A program made the translations under genes and the position numbers. The notes under the pieces are model-generated. The model saw only the letters and a list, made by a program, of their open reading frames with translations. It was not told the DNA's origin and searched no databases. Shown here piece by piece: positions 807-21,673 of a stretch of DNA of 64,000 nucleotides. Source of the stretch: Sinimarinibacterium flocculans (GTDB lineage Bacteria > Pseudomonadota > Gammaproteobacteria > Nevskiales > Nevskiaceae); assembly GCF_003201205.1 (NCBI RefSeq), contig NZ_QICN01000001.1, positions 558,001-622,000 on the forward strand, in the 5' to 3' direction. Position 1 is the first letter of the stretch. The number at the start of each line of letters is the position of its first letter.

Positions 807-1214
807 TCAGGCGCCGACCTGGCGCAGCCAGTCCTGCAGGTTGTAGTAGTTGGTGACGCGGGCGATCAGGCCATCGCGGATCTCGAAGAAGGCACCGCCG
901 GGCAGACGGTAGGTCTGGCCGCTGGCGGGCGGCAGGCCTTCGTCGGTCTTGAGGTAGGTGCCGAGCACGACGTACTCGGCGGCGGCGCGTCTGCCCTCGG
1001 CGTTTGCCGTGATCGAGATGTCGACGATCTGTTCGCTGTAGCTCGCGTTCATGCGGTCGATGAAGAGCCGGAACGCGGCCTTGCCGGTTTCGCGGGCGCC
1101 CTGGTTGAGATCGTGCGCGACGTCGTCGGTGAGCAGGGCGAAGAATCCCTCCCAGTCGCGGGCGTTGAATGCGGCGTAGTAGCGGGCGATCAGGTCGGTG
1201 GTTGCAGCTTGCAT
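807..1214 (-). CDS. NTF2-like / ketosteroid-isomerase-related protein (SnoaL-like)
   Basis: A 135-residue single-domain protein. The start MQAATTDLIARYYAAFNARDWEGFFALL is the typical first helix of the SnoaL/NTF2-like fold, followed by a curved sheet ending in FFEIRDGLIARVTNYYN. Members bind small hydrophobic ligands in a conical pocket, some as isomerases or cyclases. No reaction can be assigned. It is the first gene of the leftward trio with the GNAT and nitrilase genes and lies 39 bp downstream of the LysR gene, so it may share that transcript or be under that regulator. The start at ATG 1212-1214 is the only sensible one. Confidence 0.8.
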   Translation of the reverse strand: MQAATTDLIARYYAAFNARDWEGFFALLTDDVAHDLNQGARETGKAAFRLFIDRMNASYSEQIVDISITANAEGRRAAAEYVVLGTYLKTDEGLPPASGQTYRLPGGAFFEIRDGLIARVTNYYNLQDWLRQVGA

Positions 1215-1253
1215 CGGACGGCTCGGCGGAAAAGCGGGCGGGCAGTTTACCGG

Positions 1254-2120
1254 CTACGCAGCGGGCAGCAGCCGCATCAGCGCCTGCGCGGCACCGGAGC
1301 GCGTGCGTCTTTCGTGCCAGACCAGCCCGAGTTCGCGGTGCAGCCGCAACCGCGGGACGTGCAGGCGGGCGAGGGTATCGTCGAGCATCGACTCCGGCAG
1401 CACGCTCCATCCCAGGCCGATGCCGGCGAGCATCTTCAGGGTCTCGAGATAGTTGGTGGCGAGGCGTACGTGCGGTCGCACGCCTTCGCGCTCGAGCGCG
1501 CGGGTGACGATGCGGTGCGTATATGTCGCCTCGTCGGGAAGGACGGCAGGATGCCCGGCGAGCTGGACCAGCGAGACCTGGCGGCGGCCCGCGAGCGGAT
1601 GGTCGGGGGCGGCGACGACCACGAGCGGGTCGGGCCAGACGAGGCGCTGCTGCAACTGGGCGAGCGGCTGCGTCGGCAGCGTGACGATGCCCAGCTCGAG
1701 CTGGCCGGCGAGCACGGCCTGGCAGACGACTTCCGAATCCATGAAGTGGATGTCGAGATCGACCTGCGGGAATTCGCGCGTGAACTGACCGAGGACCGGC
1801 GGCAGGCGGTGCAGGCCGATGTGATGGCTGGTGCCGATCGACAGGCGCCCGCCGACCTGCGCATGCAGCTGCGACAACGCGCGGCGCGCATCCTCGATGT
1901 CCTGCAGCGTCTTGTGCGCGTAGGGCAGCAGGGTGCGGCCGGCATCGGTCAGGCCGACACTGCGACCGACCCGATCGAACAGCGACTGGCCGATCTGCGA
2001 TTCGAGCGCGGTGATGCGTTTGCTCACGGCCGGTTGTGACAGATGCAGCCGCTCCGCGGCCACGGTGAAGGAGCCGGCCTCCGCGACGGCGACAAAGGCG
2101 GTCAGCAACTGCGTGTCCAT
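1254..2120 (-). CDS. LysR family transcriptional regulator, divergent from leuC
   Basis: A 288-residue LysR-type regulator. Residues 1-60 form the winged helix-turn-helix (MDTQLLTAFVAVAEAGSFTV; then LSQPAVSKRITALE), followed by the linker helix and a periplasmic-binding-protein-like effector domain (about 90-288). It is transcribed away from leuC across a 102-bp gap that holds a perfect T-N11-A palindrome, the usual LysR site. A LysR gene next to leuC is common in pseudomonads, so control of leucine biosynthesis by a pathway intermediate is likely but inferred. It could also control the downstream NTF2/GNAT/nitrilase genes, 39 bp away on the same strand. Confidence 0.9.
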   Translation of the reverse strand: MDTQLLTAFVAVAEAGSFTVAAERLHLSQPAVSKRITALESQIGQSLFDRVGRSVGLTDAGRTLLPYAHKTLQDIEDARRALSQLHAQVGGRLSIGTSHHIGLHRLPPVLGQFTREFPQVDLDIHFMDSEVVCQAVLAGQLELGIVTLPTQPLAQLQQRLVWPDPLVVVAAPDHPLAGRRQVSLVQLAGHPAVLPDEATYTHRIVTRALEREGVRPHVRLATNYLETLKMLAGIGLGWSVLPESMLDDTLARLHVPRLRLHRELGLVWHERRTRSGAAQALMRLLPAA

Positions 2121-17543: not shown

Positions 17544-18062
17544 ATGACCTGGGTCGACTACAGCATTCTCGGCGTATTCGTGATCTCCGTGCTGCTCGGT
17601 GTCTGGCGCGGCCTCACCCGCGAAGTCCTGAGCCTGCTGACCTGGATCGCCGCCTTCGTCGTTGCCTGGATGTTCCATCGGCCCGCCGCCGCGATGATCG
17701 CCCCGTACATTCCTGACCCGGTACTGAGCATGGCTGCCGCCTGCGCCGGCGTGTTCCTGCTCGCGCTGCTGGTCGGTGCGCTGCTCACGCACCTGCTGGT
17801 CACGGTGGTGCGCGAGAGCGGTTTCTCGCCCGCCGACCGGACGCTCGGCGGCGGTCTGGGGATGGTCCGTGCGGTCATCGTCGTCAGCCTGTTCGTGCTG
17901 GTCGGAGGGCGCATGGGTGCGGCCGAGGCCGGCTGGTGGCAGGAGTCCGCCCTGATCGGCCAGTTCGAGCCGCTCGCGCAGGGCTTTGCGAACGTGATGC
18001 CCGAGGCGTGGCTCGACATGATCAAACCCACCGCGAACCCCAACCCGTCCCCAGGCCCATAA
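17544..18062 (+). CDS. cvpA: CvpA family membrane protein
   Basis: CvpA is an inner-membrane protein first linked to colicin V production and more recently to envelope/bile stress; its molecular function is unknown. The 172-residue protein has four hydrophobic segments and matches E. coli Cvp[16 protein letters not shown] at the start, [16 protein letters not shown], and [22 protein letters not shown]. The ATG at 17544 is chosen over an in-frame TTG at 17526 because it aligns with the family start. purF starts 2 bp after it, a classical pairing. Confidence 0.9.
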
Positions 18063-18064
18063 CC

Positions 18065-19579
18065 ATGTGCGGAATTGCCGGCGTCGTTTCCCAGGGTACT
18101 ACCGTGAGCGCGGAGCTGTTCGACGCGCTGACGATGCTGCAGCACCGCGGCCAGGACGCGGCCGGCATCATCACCAACGAGGACCACCACCTGTTCCTGC
18201 GCAAGGAGAACGGACTGGTGCGCGACGTGTTCAGCGCCGACGAGCACATGCTGCGTCTGCGCGGGCGCATGGGCGTGGCGCATGTCCGCTATCCGACGGC
18301 GGGCTGTTCGACCTCGGCGGAGGCGCAGCCGTTCTATACCAACACGCCGTTCGGCATCTCGCTGTCGCACAACGGCAACCTGACCAACGCCGAGGAACTC
18401 AAGCAGGAGCTGTTCCTGCAGGACCGCCGGCACCTGAACACCGAGTCCGACTCCGAGGTGCTGCTCAACATCTTCGCGCACGAGCTGCTCCAGCGCGGCG
18501 TGCTGCGCCTGACCCCGGAAGACATCTTCGCGGCGGTCTCCGGGGTGCACCTGCGCTGCCGCGGCGCCTACGCCTGCGTTGCGATGATCACCGGCTACGG
18601 GGTCGTCGGTTTTCGCGATCCCTACGGCATCCGCCCCGCCGTCTACGGCGTGCGCGAGACCAAGAACGGTGTCGACTACCTGATCGCATCCGAATCGGTG
18701 GCGCTCGACGCCCTGGGCTACGAGCTGCTGGCTGACATCCAGCCCGGCGAGGCGGTACTGATCACGCTCGACGGCAAGTTGCACAAGCGGCAGTGCGCCG
18801 CCAACCCGATCTACTCGCCCTGCATCTTCGAGCACGTCTACCTGGCGCGGCCAGACTCGGTGATCGACGACATCTACGTCTACAAGGCGCGCCTGCGCAT
18901 GGGCGTGAAACTCGCCGAGAAGATCCTGCGCGAATGGCCGGATCACGACATCGACACCGTGATCCCGATCCCGGACACCTCGCGCGTCGCCGGTGCCGAA
19001 CTCGCCGCGCGGCTGGGCGTGAACTACCGCGAGGGCTTCATCAAGAACCGCTACATCGGGCGCACCTTCATCATGCCCGGACAGGCGCAGCGCAAGAAAT
19101 CGGTGCGCCAGAAGCTCAACCCGGTCGATCTCGAGTTCAAGGGCAAGAACGTGCTGCTGGTCGACGACTCGATCGTGCGCGGCACCACGTCCAGGGAGAT
19201 CATCGAGATGGCGCGCGAGGCCGGGGCGAAGAAGGTGTACTTCGCGTCCGCGGCGCCGCCGGTGCGGTATCCCAACGTCTACGGCATCGACATGCCGACG
19301 AGCTCGGAGCTGGTGGCGCACGGCCGCAGCGTCGAGGAGCTGCAGACGCTGCTCGGTGCCGATCGCCTGATCTATCAGGACCTTGAGGATCTGGTCGAGG
19401 CGGTCCGTGCCGGCAACCCGGCGATCACCCGTTTCGACTGCTCGGTGTTCACCGGCGAGTACATCACCCAGGACGTCACGGCCGAGTACCTGAGCCAGCT
19501 CGAGCTGTTCCGCAGCGACTCGGCCAAGTCGGCGCGCAAGCAGGCCCGAACGGTGATCGAGCTGACGAACAACGCTTGA
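18065..19579 (+). CDS. purF: Amidophosphoribosyltransferase
   Basis: PurF makes phosphoribosylamine from PRPP and glutamine, the first committed purine step. The 504-residue protein begins MCGIAGVV, so Cys2 is the N-terminal glutaminase nucleophile (no propeptide). It has [19 protein letters not shown], and the PRPP-binding loop [14 protein letters not shown] in the C-terminal transferase domain. Length equals E. coli PurF (505). It ends 144 bp before metZ; a small hairpin (ACGCA 19581-19585 with TGCGT 19593-19597) followed by a T-rich run could end part of its transcripts. Confidence 0.97.
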
Positions 19580-19611
19580 GACGCAGCGGTTTTGCGTTTA
19601 CCTTTCGCCAC

Positions 19612-19661
19612 GGCGCCGATTTGAGCCTGCTTGCGGGCGCCTTACAAATGCAGCTAAACGG
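19612..19661 (+). ncRNA. SAM-II (metA-type) riboswitch aptamer upstream of metZ
   Basis: The stretch matches the SAM-II pseudoknot. P1 is GGCGCC (19612-19617) with GGCGCC (19636-19641). Loop 1 starts GATTTGA (19618-19624), continues GCC (19625-19627) and TTGC (19631-19634). The 3' tail reads ACAAATGCAGCTAAA, the near-invariant signature of this class. Pseudoknot pairing is TTGC with GCAG (19650-19653) and CC with GG (19660-19661). SAM-II RNAs bind S-adenosylmethionine and switch off methionine genes; metZ is a typical target. The class is known mainly from alphaproteobacteria. Confidence 0.88.
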
Positions 19662-19680
19662 TACGAGAGGTCCGTTTAGC
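19653..19680 (+). promoter_or_regulatory. Predicted antiterminator hairpin of the SAM-II switch
   Basis: GCTAAACGG (19653-19661) pairs perfectly with CCGTTTAGC (19672-19680), 9 bp with a 10-nt loop. The 5' arm is the 3' strand of the SAM-II pseudoknot and the 3' arm is the left arm of the following terminator-like hairpin, so this helix excludes both. It should form when SAM is absent. Confidence 0.7.
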
Positions 19681-19700
19681 CGTTCGGCAAACGGGCCTTT
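19666..19700 (+). terminator. Predicted SAM-controlled terminator hairpin before metZ
   Basis: AGGTCCGTTT (19668-19677) pairs with AAACGGGCCT (19689-19698) with one T-G wobble, extended inward by GCC/GGC (19679-19681 with 19686-19688, one bulged A) around a GTTC tetraloop. It is followed by TTTCGCGTTTTC, an interrupted T run. Its left arm is shared with the antiterminator helix, giving the layout of a transcriptional OFF switch. Confidence 0.65.
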
Positions 19701-19723
19701 CGCGTTTTCGAGGAGCGTGTGCT

Positions 19724-20911
19724 GTGAATGAGACCTTCGATCCGGAATGGGGCGCCTCCACGCTCGGCGTGCGCGCCGCGGAGCCGCGCACGGAGAACCG
19801 CGAGCACGCCGCGTCGGTCTCGATGACGTCGAGCTACGTGTTCGGCAGCGCGGCCGAAGCCGCGGCGGTGTTCCAGGGGCAGGCGCCCGGCTACATTTAC
19901 TCGCGGTTCACCAATCCGACCGTCGAGGCCTTCGAGCGGCGTCTCGCCGCGATGGAAGGCGGCGAGAGCTGCGTGGCCACCGCCAGCGGCATGGCGGCGA
20001 TCCTGAGCCTGTGTCTTGCGCTGCTCAGGCAGGGCGATCACATCCTCTCGTCGAGCGGCGTCTTCGGTTCGACGATCAACCTGTTCAACAACGTGCTGAC
20101 GCGCTTCGGCGTGACGACCTCCTATGTCGACACGACGGCGGACGTCGCGACCTGGGAGGCGGCGTTGCGGCCGAACACGAAGCTGCTGTTCGTGGAGACG
20201 CCGTCGAACCCGCTGGTGGAACTGGCCGACATCGCCTCGCTGGCACGGCTGTCCCGTGCGCACGGCGCTTGGCTGTGCGTCGACAACTGCTTCCTGACCC
20301 CGGTGCTGCAGCAGCCGCTGAGGCTCGGTGCCGACTTCGTGATCCACTCGGCGACCAAGTACATCGACGGGCAGGGGCGCGCCGTGGGCGGCGCCATCGT
20401 CGGTGACGCCGAGAGGGTCGGCAAGGACGTGTTCGGCTTCATGCGTACCGCGGGTCCGTGCATGAGTCCGTTCAATGCCTGGGTGTTTCTCAAGGGTCTG
20501 GAAACCCTGGCCGTGCGCATGCGCGCGCACTGCGACAACGCCCGGGCCGTCGCCGAGTGGCTCGAGGAGCAGCCGAGCGTCGCCCGGGTCTTCTATCCGG
20601 GGCTGGCGAGCCATCCGCAGCACGTGCTCGCGCAGCGTCAGCAAAGCGGCTACGGCGGCGTCGTCAGCTTCGAGCTCGAGGGCGGGCGCGATGCGGCGTG
20701 GAAGCTGATCGATGCGACCCGTATGCTGTCGATCACCGCGAATCTCGGCGATACGCGCACGACGATCACGCATCCGGCAACGACGACGCACGGCCGCATC
20801 AGCCAGGAGGCGCGCGACGCGGCGGGCGTGACCGAGGGCCTGGTGCGGCTTGCCGTGGGCCTGGAGGACGCGCGGGACATCATCGCCGACCTCGCCCGCG
20901 GCCTCGGCTGA
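19724..20911 (+). CDS. metZ: O-succinylhomoserine sulfhydrylase
   Basis: MetZ makes homocysteine directly from O-succinylhomoserine and sulfide with PLP. The 395-residue protein is a Cys/Met-metabolism PLP enzyme: YIYSRFTNPTVEAFERRLA, ATASGMAAI, ETPSNPLVELADI, the PLP lysine at residue 212 in IHSATKYIDGQGR, and ITHPATTTHGR. The GTG at 19724 has AGGAG at 19711-19715. The purF-metZ order is the Pseudomonas one, and the SAM-II riboswitch directly upstream fits a methionine gene. Confidence 0.95.
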   Translation: MNETFDPEWGASTLGVRAAEPRTENREHAASVSMTSSYVFGSAAEAAAVFQGQAPGYIYSRFTNPTVEAFERRLAAMEGGESCVATASGMAAILSLCLALLRQGDHILSSSGVFGSTINLFNNVLTRFGVTTSYVDTTADVATWEAALRPNTKLLFVETPSNPLVELADIASLARLSRAHGAWLCVDNCFLTPVLQQPLRLGADFVIHSATKYIDGQGRAVGGAIVGDAERVGKDVFGFMRTAGPCMSPFNAWVFLKGLETLAVRMRAHCDNARAVAEWLEEQPSVARVFYPGLASHPQHVLAQRQQSGYGGVVSFELEGGRDAAWKLIDATRMLSITANLGDTRTTITHPATTTHGRISQEARDAAGVTEGLVRLAVGLEDARDIIADLARGLG

Positions 20912-20914
20912 GCC

Positions 20915-21673
20915 GTGCCGACGAGGGACGCTGCGTTCGCGGCGCTCGTCGAGCGCGATCCGCAGCGCAAGTGCGAGGCGGTGGTGGCGATCGGCAGCGC
21001 CGGTGCCGACGCACCGGCATCGGGCTTCGACTGGCAACGCGTGCCGGGCCGGCCGCCGCGGCCGGTGCTGGTGCATCCGCGCGACGTTCCCAGACGGTCC
21101 CTGGGCAGTGCCGATGGGCGGCGGGCGCTGCTGCACGCCGTGGCCCACATCGAGTTCAACGCGATCAACCTGGCGCTCGACGCCGTGTGCCGCTTCGACG
21201 GTCTGCCGCCGGCGTTCTATGCGGACTGGCTCAGCGTCGCCCGCGACGAGGCGCGTCACTTCCGGCTGCTGCGCGCGCGACTGCAGCAGCTCGGCTGCGA
21301 CTATGGCGACTTTCCGGCGCACAACGGGCTCTGGGAGGCGGCGGAGAAGACCGCGCACGACGTGCTGGTCCGGATGGCGCTGGTGCCGCGCGTGCTCGAG
21401 GCGCGCGGCCTCGACGTGACGCCGGGCATGATGGCGCGCGTGCGCGAGGCCGGTGACGAGCCGACGCTGGCGATTCTGGCCACGATCCTGGACGAGGAGG
21501 TCCGGCACGTGGCCATCGGCACCCATTGGTTCCGGCACCTGTGCGCCAGTCGCGGACTCGAGCCGGTGGCGACCTTCCGCGGGTTGCTCGGCGAGCATGG
21601 CGTGCGCCTGCATCCGCCGCTGAATCTCGACGCGCGCGAGCGCGCCGGGTTCGTGGCTGCGGAGCTGTCCTGA
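20915..21673 (+). CDS. DUF455 ferritin-like protein
   Basis: A 252-residue protein of the DUF455 family, an all-helical ferritin-like fold whose function is unknown. Metal-ligand-like motifs are visible: HAVAHIEFNAINLALDA (about 75-91), ARDEARHFRLL, and LDEEVRHVAIG near 195, giving the Glu/Glu-x-x-His pattern of di-iron proteins. It starts with GTG 3 bp after metZ and therefore probably lies under the same SAM-II riboswitch. No relation to methionine metabolism is known; the link is only positional. Confidence 0.8.
   Translation: MPTRDAAFAALVERDPQRKCEAVVAIGSAGADAPASGFDWQRVPGRPPRPVLVHPRDVPRRSLGSADGRRALLHAVAHIEFNAINLALDAVCRFDGLPPAFYADWLSVARDEARHFRLLRARLQQLGCDYGDFPAHNGLWEAAEKTAHDVLVRMALVPRVLEARGLDVTPGMMARVREAGDEPTLAILATILDEEVRHVAIGTHWFRHLCASRGLEPVATFRGLLGEHGVRLHPPLNLDARERAGFVAAELS

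Follow-up and report, generated by a model that had tools for sequence, protein, structure and literature searches.

The window, i.e., the complete 64-kb stretch of DNA analysed here, belongs to a Nevskiales gammaproteobacterium and contains the gene metZ, the product of which shares 83% identity with its counterpart in Sinimarinibacterium sp. CAU 1509 and 79% with the one in Solimonas soli. The leader described below sits between purF and metZ and carries a match to the SAM-II riboswitch family, the 3' end of which is located 45 nt from the metZ start; metZ, as named by NF006003, is the methionine/SAM gene directly downstream of this match. Directly 3' of metZ, a gene encoding a DUF455 protein is found (PF04305, 310.7 bits; 20915-21673). 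The features of the locus are the following:

18062-19579, plus strand: purF, the gene preceding the leader (TIGR01134, 503.9 bits, cut-off 350)
19576-19604, plus strand: possible promoter, read by eye (TTGAGA 19576-19581, 17 nt, TACCTT 19599-19604)
19603-19678, plus strand: match to the SAM-II covariance model (RF00521, 38.9 bits, cut-off 36, E 3e-5)
19612-19617, plus strand: 5' strand of P1, GGCGCC (inverted repeat I4)
19618-19624, plus strand: loop L1, GATTTGA (sequence)
19627-19634, plus strand: 5' strand of the pseudoknot P2, C19627 and TTGC 19631-19634 (pairing tested on 196 leaders)
19636-19641, plus strand: 3' strand of P1, GGCGCC (inverted repeat I4)
19642-19652, plus strand: linker L3, TTACAAATGCA, containing AAAT (sequence)
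19653-19661, plus strand: tail GCTAAACGG, 3' strand of P2 and putative 5' arm of the antiterminator (inverted repeat I2, 9 nt, 100%)
19669-19697, plus strand: terminator-type hairpin, the fold extending to 19664-19702 (-17.9 kcal/mol, terminator score -7.6, inverted repeat I1)
19672-19680, plus strand: CCGTTTAGC, putative 3' arm of the antiterminator, within the terminator hairpin (duplex energy, inverted repeat, 196 leaders)
19698-19709, plus strand: interrupted U-tract TTTCGCGTTTTC (sequence, terminator score -7.6)
19710-19715, plus strand: possible Shine-Dalgarno sequence GAGGAG (sequence)
19724-20911, plus strand: metZ, O-succinylhomoserine sulfhydrylase (NF006003, 662.2 bits, cut-off 522; TIGR01325, 561.2 bits, cut-off 510)

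A consensus scan reported no promoter in the metZ leader, including the candidate at 19576-19604.

RF00521 is the sole Rfam family above its cut-off in the window, and SAM-V has no match of its own above the cut-off there. The earlier note had assigned the leader to SAM-II and suggested a run of this very model, the score of which agrees with the assignment, and the motifs it had listed (GGCGCC twice as P1, GATTTGA, TTGC and GCTAAA, the last at 19653-19658) were all located; P1, GATTTG, TTGC and GCTAAA follow each other in the order typical of SAM-II. The window contains a single aptamer, and neither RF00521 nor R2, a clade covariance model built from 41 leaders including that of the window, found a further match elsewhere in the host genome. 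The R2 score of the window, 65.2, is not independent evidence because the window is one of the 41 rows of R2. The identification of the metZ leader as a SAM-II riboswitch is well supported by the covariance model, and sensing of SAM is predicted from it.

The pairing of the pseudoknot had to be revised. The earlier note had paired TTGC with GCAG, a register that forms a standard pair at its outer position in no more than 68 of 196 leaders and at one of its other positions in 129; it was replaced by a pairing of TTGC with GCTAAA. These 196 leaders remained from 212 loci after removal of 10 duplicates and of six loci without the anchor (L017, L111, L153, L213, L226 and L228). In the window, P2, which joins the P1 loop to the tail, pairs in the canonical SAM-II register, TTGC with GCTAA and C19627 with G19661. 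Using a numbering (e.g., 16-50 and 15-51) which we take to be that of the SAM-II crystal structure, position 16-50 is paired in 167 of the 196 leaders, and position 15-51 co-varies, being paired in 146 leaders with 123.2 expected (0 of 1000 permutations), while the window itself is unpaired there (C/U). The signal is weaker at position 14-52 (103 leaders, 89.1 expected, 7 of 1000 permutations). The invariance of TTGC and GCTAA across the leaders proves nothing because the anchor required those letters.

The tail of the aptamer links it to the following hairpin. GCTAAACGG is perfectly complementary to CCGTTTAGC over 9 bp without mismatch, as stated in the earlier note, and the duplex has an energy of -14.9 kcal/mol compared to a mean of -8.0 for shuffled sequences, none of 200 shuffles being as stable. 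The note had further described CCGTTTAGC as the left arm of a strong hairpin with a T-rich tail. The hairpin is indeed strong; the tail is not what had been described, since the interruption of the U-tract brings the terminator score down to -7.6, and the consensus scan reported no terminator in the metZ leader. When folds of the growing RNA were computed, the antiterminator had a probability of 1.00 at RNA ends 19679-19697 and of 0.75 at 19700, and the terminator appeared from 19703 onwards; when 19653-19661 was blocked, as it would be by P2, the terminator alone formed. Antiterminator and terminator are mutually exclusive in the window, as seen by folding, from the inverted repeats and in the comparison of leaders. 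At equilibrium without SAM, the terminator fold reaches -42.8 kcal/mol and the fold with the antiterminator forced -37.1 kcal/mol, a gap of 5.7 kcal/mol. The ON state must therefore be kinetic, because the terminator wins at equilibrium even in the absence of SAM.

An evolutionary test of the pairing was possible with the 196 leaders. The arm TTTAGC lies downstream of GCTAAA in 61 of them with 7.7 expected, and the relaxed arm TTT[AG]GC in 101 with 27.2 expected, the maximum of 50 shuffle rounds being 35, whereas three control words occurred 9, 2 and 7 times with 12.2, 1.8 and 4.5 expected; the exact TTT[AG]GC arm is absent from the other 95 leaders. The bases flanking both arms change in a compensatory manner: the trinucleotide following GCTAAA can pair with the one preceding the arm at 2.45 of 3 positions versus 1.80 after permutation (0 of 2000), and on the 38 unique combinations at 2.00 versus 1.47 (0 of 2000), with the restriction that the permutations leave some relatedness in. 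Examples are CGG with CCG, GCG with TGC or CGC, and GAC with GTT. Of the 196 leaders, 151 have a terminator scoring above 0 and 45 have none; such a terminator occurs in 90 of the 101 leaders with the TTT[AG]GC arm, and the arm lies inside the terminator in all 90. In a separate test of 41 leaders, the tail paired better with its own arm than with those of other leaders (-12.1 versus -10.7, 0 of 5000 permutations), although pairing in many individual leaders did not exceed that of shuffled sequences. The comparison supports an antiterminator pairing that is conserved across related leaders.

Based on these data, we regard the metZ leader as quite likely a SAM-II riboswitch acting as a SAM-induced (SAM-OFF) transcription attenuator. 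At low SAM, GCUAAACGG would pair with CCGUUUAGC as soon as the latter is transcribed; this antiterminator would consume the left arm of the next hairpin, thereby allowing RNA polymerase to read through into metZ. At high SAM, the pseudoknot P2 would hold GCUAAACGG and block the antiterminator, and the hairpin at 19669-19697 would then end transcription. We thereby infer SAM binding, the efficiency of termination and the direction of control at the metZ leader. That antiterminator and terminator exclude each other and that the switch follows an OFF logic, both put forward in the earlier note, is supported by the covariance model, the folding of the growing transcript and the compensatory changes in the 196 leaders.

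The aptamer could also be genuine and the hairpin too poor a terminator in this host, with control exerted by pausing, by Rho or only by weak attenuation. The negative terminator score, the interrupted U-tract and the silent consensus scan speak for this possibility, as do three congeners that also score below 0 (L004 -4.1, L010 -7.3 and L015 -4.1). However, the stem is very stable at -17.9 kcal/mol, both the arm and its mutually exclusive pairing are conserved, and other relatives possess strong terminators (22.8 in L009), which makes this explanation improbable. It is more unlikely still that the switch controls the translation of metZ by hiding the Shine-Dalgarno sequence: SAM-II is able to act on translation, as described in the available text of PMC9373788 for the Sargasso and S. 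meliloti metA cases, but in the folds covering GAGGAG (19710-19715), this motif is single-stranded or sits right at the margin, and it forms no pairs with the aptamer tail. Finally, a chance resemblance or a decayed, functionless element, for which one could cite the margin of just 2.9 bits above the Rfam cut-off and a sub-threshold Rfam match of 28.5 bits adjoining a dnaK reading frame in a relative (L017), is very unlikely given an E value of 3e-5 in 64 kb, matches in 10 of 11 genomes of the genus and a SAM-II element 5' of metZ in 34 of 80 metZ loci from named records.

SAM-induced attenuation at metZ, as preferred here, concerns an element that is widespread in the relatives of the host. 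The Rfam model matched 18 of 61 relatives at E <= 0.001, one of which (L017) is false, and seven above its cut-off, whereas R2 matched 36; within the genus of the window, R2 found 10 of 11 genomes and Rfam five. The same leader is hence present in related genomes, which the earlier note had proposed to check. In a draw of 369 genomes of the class, which was spread evenly over families and does not represent a share of all sequenced genomes, R2 matched 181 (158 of 314 good assemblies, 132 of 272 genera), while Rfam matched 118 at E <= 0.001 and 31 above its cut-off. A draw of 249 genomes from the phylum gave 44 R2 matches, 26 inside the class and 18 outside. For the 117 R2 loci drawn from the class, the gene lying in the same orientation no more than 1500 nt downstream was metZ (79), metK (12), metF (5), metN (3) or metX (1) in 100 cases, and the remaining 17 had another or no assigned gene; these names rest on one representative each, assigned by NCBIfam, where MetN was the top-scoring family but did not reach its cut-off. 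Family f112 has R2 matches in 103 of 120 genomes, and all 30 fetched loci precede metX. Some sub-threshold Rfam hits are false: L017 (genome G042) lies beside a DnaK reading frame and has no R2 match, and L226 looks false too. According to the covariance-model matches, SAM-II is common in this bacterial class and is often missed by standard annotation. The view expressed in the earlier note that SAM-II is chiefly alphaproteobacterial is out of date in the light of published beta- and gammaproteobacterial copies and of the R2 matches in 181 of 369 class genomes, and its claim that the gammaproteobacterial host and the transcriptional mechanism are notable does not hold, since both are in print and roughly half of the class genomes sampled carry the element.

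An orphan element of betaproteobacteria may belong to the same family. As far as the available text goes, Leyn et al. 2014 (PMC4239095) found SAM_alpha by Rfam scan in two alphaproteobacterial orders only and described a novel metXZ element 5' of metX or metZ in betaproteobacteria, which comprises a pseudoknot and a terminator and precedes metZ in Thiobacillus denitrificans. In five records named Thiobacillus, R2 matches before metZ in three (L071, L086 and L088) and not in L063 and L089. The Rfam scores are 23.8 bits for L071, a Thiobacillus metZ leader, and 23.3 bits for the metX leader L243, and such low scores would explain why an Rfam scan missed leaders of this kind. The metXZ element is very probably SAM-II, a match made on genes, lineage and architecture that draws on the metZ loci named Thiobacillus and on the metX loci of family f112; a title-level search of openly licensed papers did not find this identification in print.

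Several variants of SAM-II-like leaders were observed. A divergent leader, GCGCCGATTTA..ACTTGC..GGGCGC, was seen in the Pseudomonas-like family f165 (L259-L265 and L279-L298), in most rows with a linker hairpin; its 3' part consists of GAAATACCGCTAAAGCGCTGG followed by a possible anti-Shine-Dalgarno sequence, and it precedes an open reading frame of about 102 residues without Pfam match. Within the family, R2 detects it in 41 of 79 genomes, none of the six loci scanned with Rfam gave a SAM_alpha match at E <= 1, one title-level literature search found no paper title on it, and L264 carries the Pseudomonas sRNA P11. A stable hairpin of variable sequence is inserted in the linker between P1 and the tail in L021, L022, L025, L046, L083 and L271-L278; several congeners of the window genome carry it (G001, G003, G006 and G008 were fetched), and it helps to explain why Rfam misses them. 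A regular expression parsed 145 distinct aptamers and yielded at least nine long linkers, at least eight of which fold as hairpins; these are lower bounds, as the expression missed the Pseudomonas-like aptamers and others such as L276 and L278. A second SAM-II-like aptamer 3' of the terminator of the first was read by eye in L100, L148, L151, L153, L175, L178-L181, L187 and L212, in L179 and L180 from shorter sequence stretches, and Rfam reports such a copy in L126 alone (21.9 bits). SAM-II-like leaders also precede metK, the gene of the SAM-making enzyme (L156, L158, L167, L182, L186, L189, L195, L197, L199, which was named by NCBIfam, L202, L209, L213, L268 and L269), and L158 and L268 additionally have a SAH riboswitch match close by, in the same orientation within the locus as the SAM-II match. 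In L121, a SAM-I riboswitch (RF00162, 81.5 bits; 1171-1284, minus strand) is found about 210 nt from the SAM-II match (1494-1570, plus strand); the available part of Barrick and Breaker 2007 states that no species had both SAM-I and SAM-II. Genome G305 has seven R2 matches with mostly unassigned downstream genes.

Together, it seems reasonably likely that SAM-II, instead of being special to alphaproteobacteria, is a main SAM riboswitch of beta- and gammaproteobacteria and lies mostly below the Rfam cut-off, that the metXZ element is part of it, and that in a Pseudomonas-like family a translational subtype, whose pseudoknot linker contains a hairpin, precedes a protein of about 102 residues without Pfam match. 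For the window, the SAM-II element gives a clear prediction for the control of metZ. An improved SAM-II model would annotate methionine/SAM genes across many beta- and gammaproteobacteria and settle the identity of the metXZ element, and the single, hairpin-bearing and tandem forms provide a natural series for studying how a pseudoknot of this small size is coupled to transcription or to translation.

Beta- and gammaproteobacterial SAM-II copies and terminator platforms have been in print since 2005-2009, as far as the available texts show. The founding alignment of Corbino et al. 2005 (PMC1273637) contains one gammaproteobacterial row (Coxiella), one betaproteobacterial row (Bordetella) and Bacteroides rows, with putative terminators in many members, and Barrick and Breaker 2007 list gammaproteobacterial copies, SAM-II being coupled to terminators most often in alpha- and betaproteobacteria. 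The window element is an ordinary SAM-II member because such copies and platforms were already published. With the founding family (metA element, SAM_alpha, RF00521), it shares P1, the pseudoknot P2, GATTTG, TTGC, GCTAAA, the position before a methionine gene and, with many members, a putative terminator; the window clade differs in that P1 reads GCGCC/GGCGC in almost all of the rows used, which is partly due to the choice of rows, and in that most members score under the Rfam cut-off. The available text of PMC9373788 describes a SAM-II element 5' of metZ in Sinorhizobium meliloti, which is predicted to terminate transcription and gives a matching sRNA, RZ; gene name and predicted SAM-induced terminator are the same as here, whereas that element is alphaproteobacterial. 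Tandem SAM-II was already known from Sherlock et al. 2022 (PMC9481103, available part), and several loci seen here resemble it in having a second aptamer, unlike the window. The metXZ element, as described in the accessible text of PMC4239095, resembles the SAM-II leaders studied here in its location before metX or metZ, its pseudoknot, its alternative structure and its terminator, and differs from them in having been published as a novel element.
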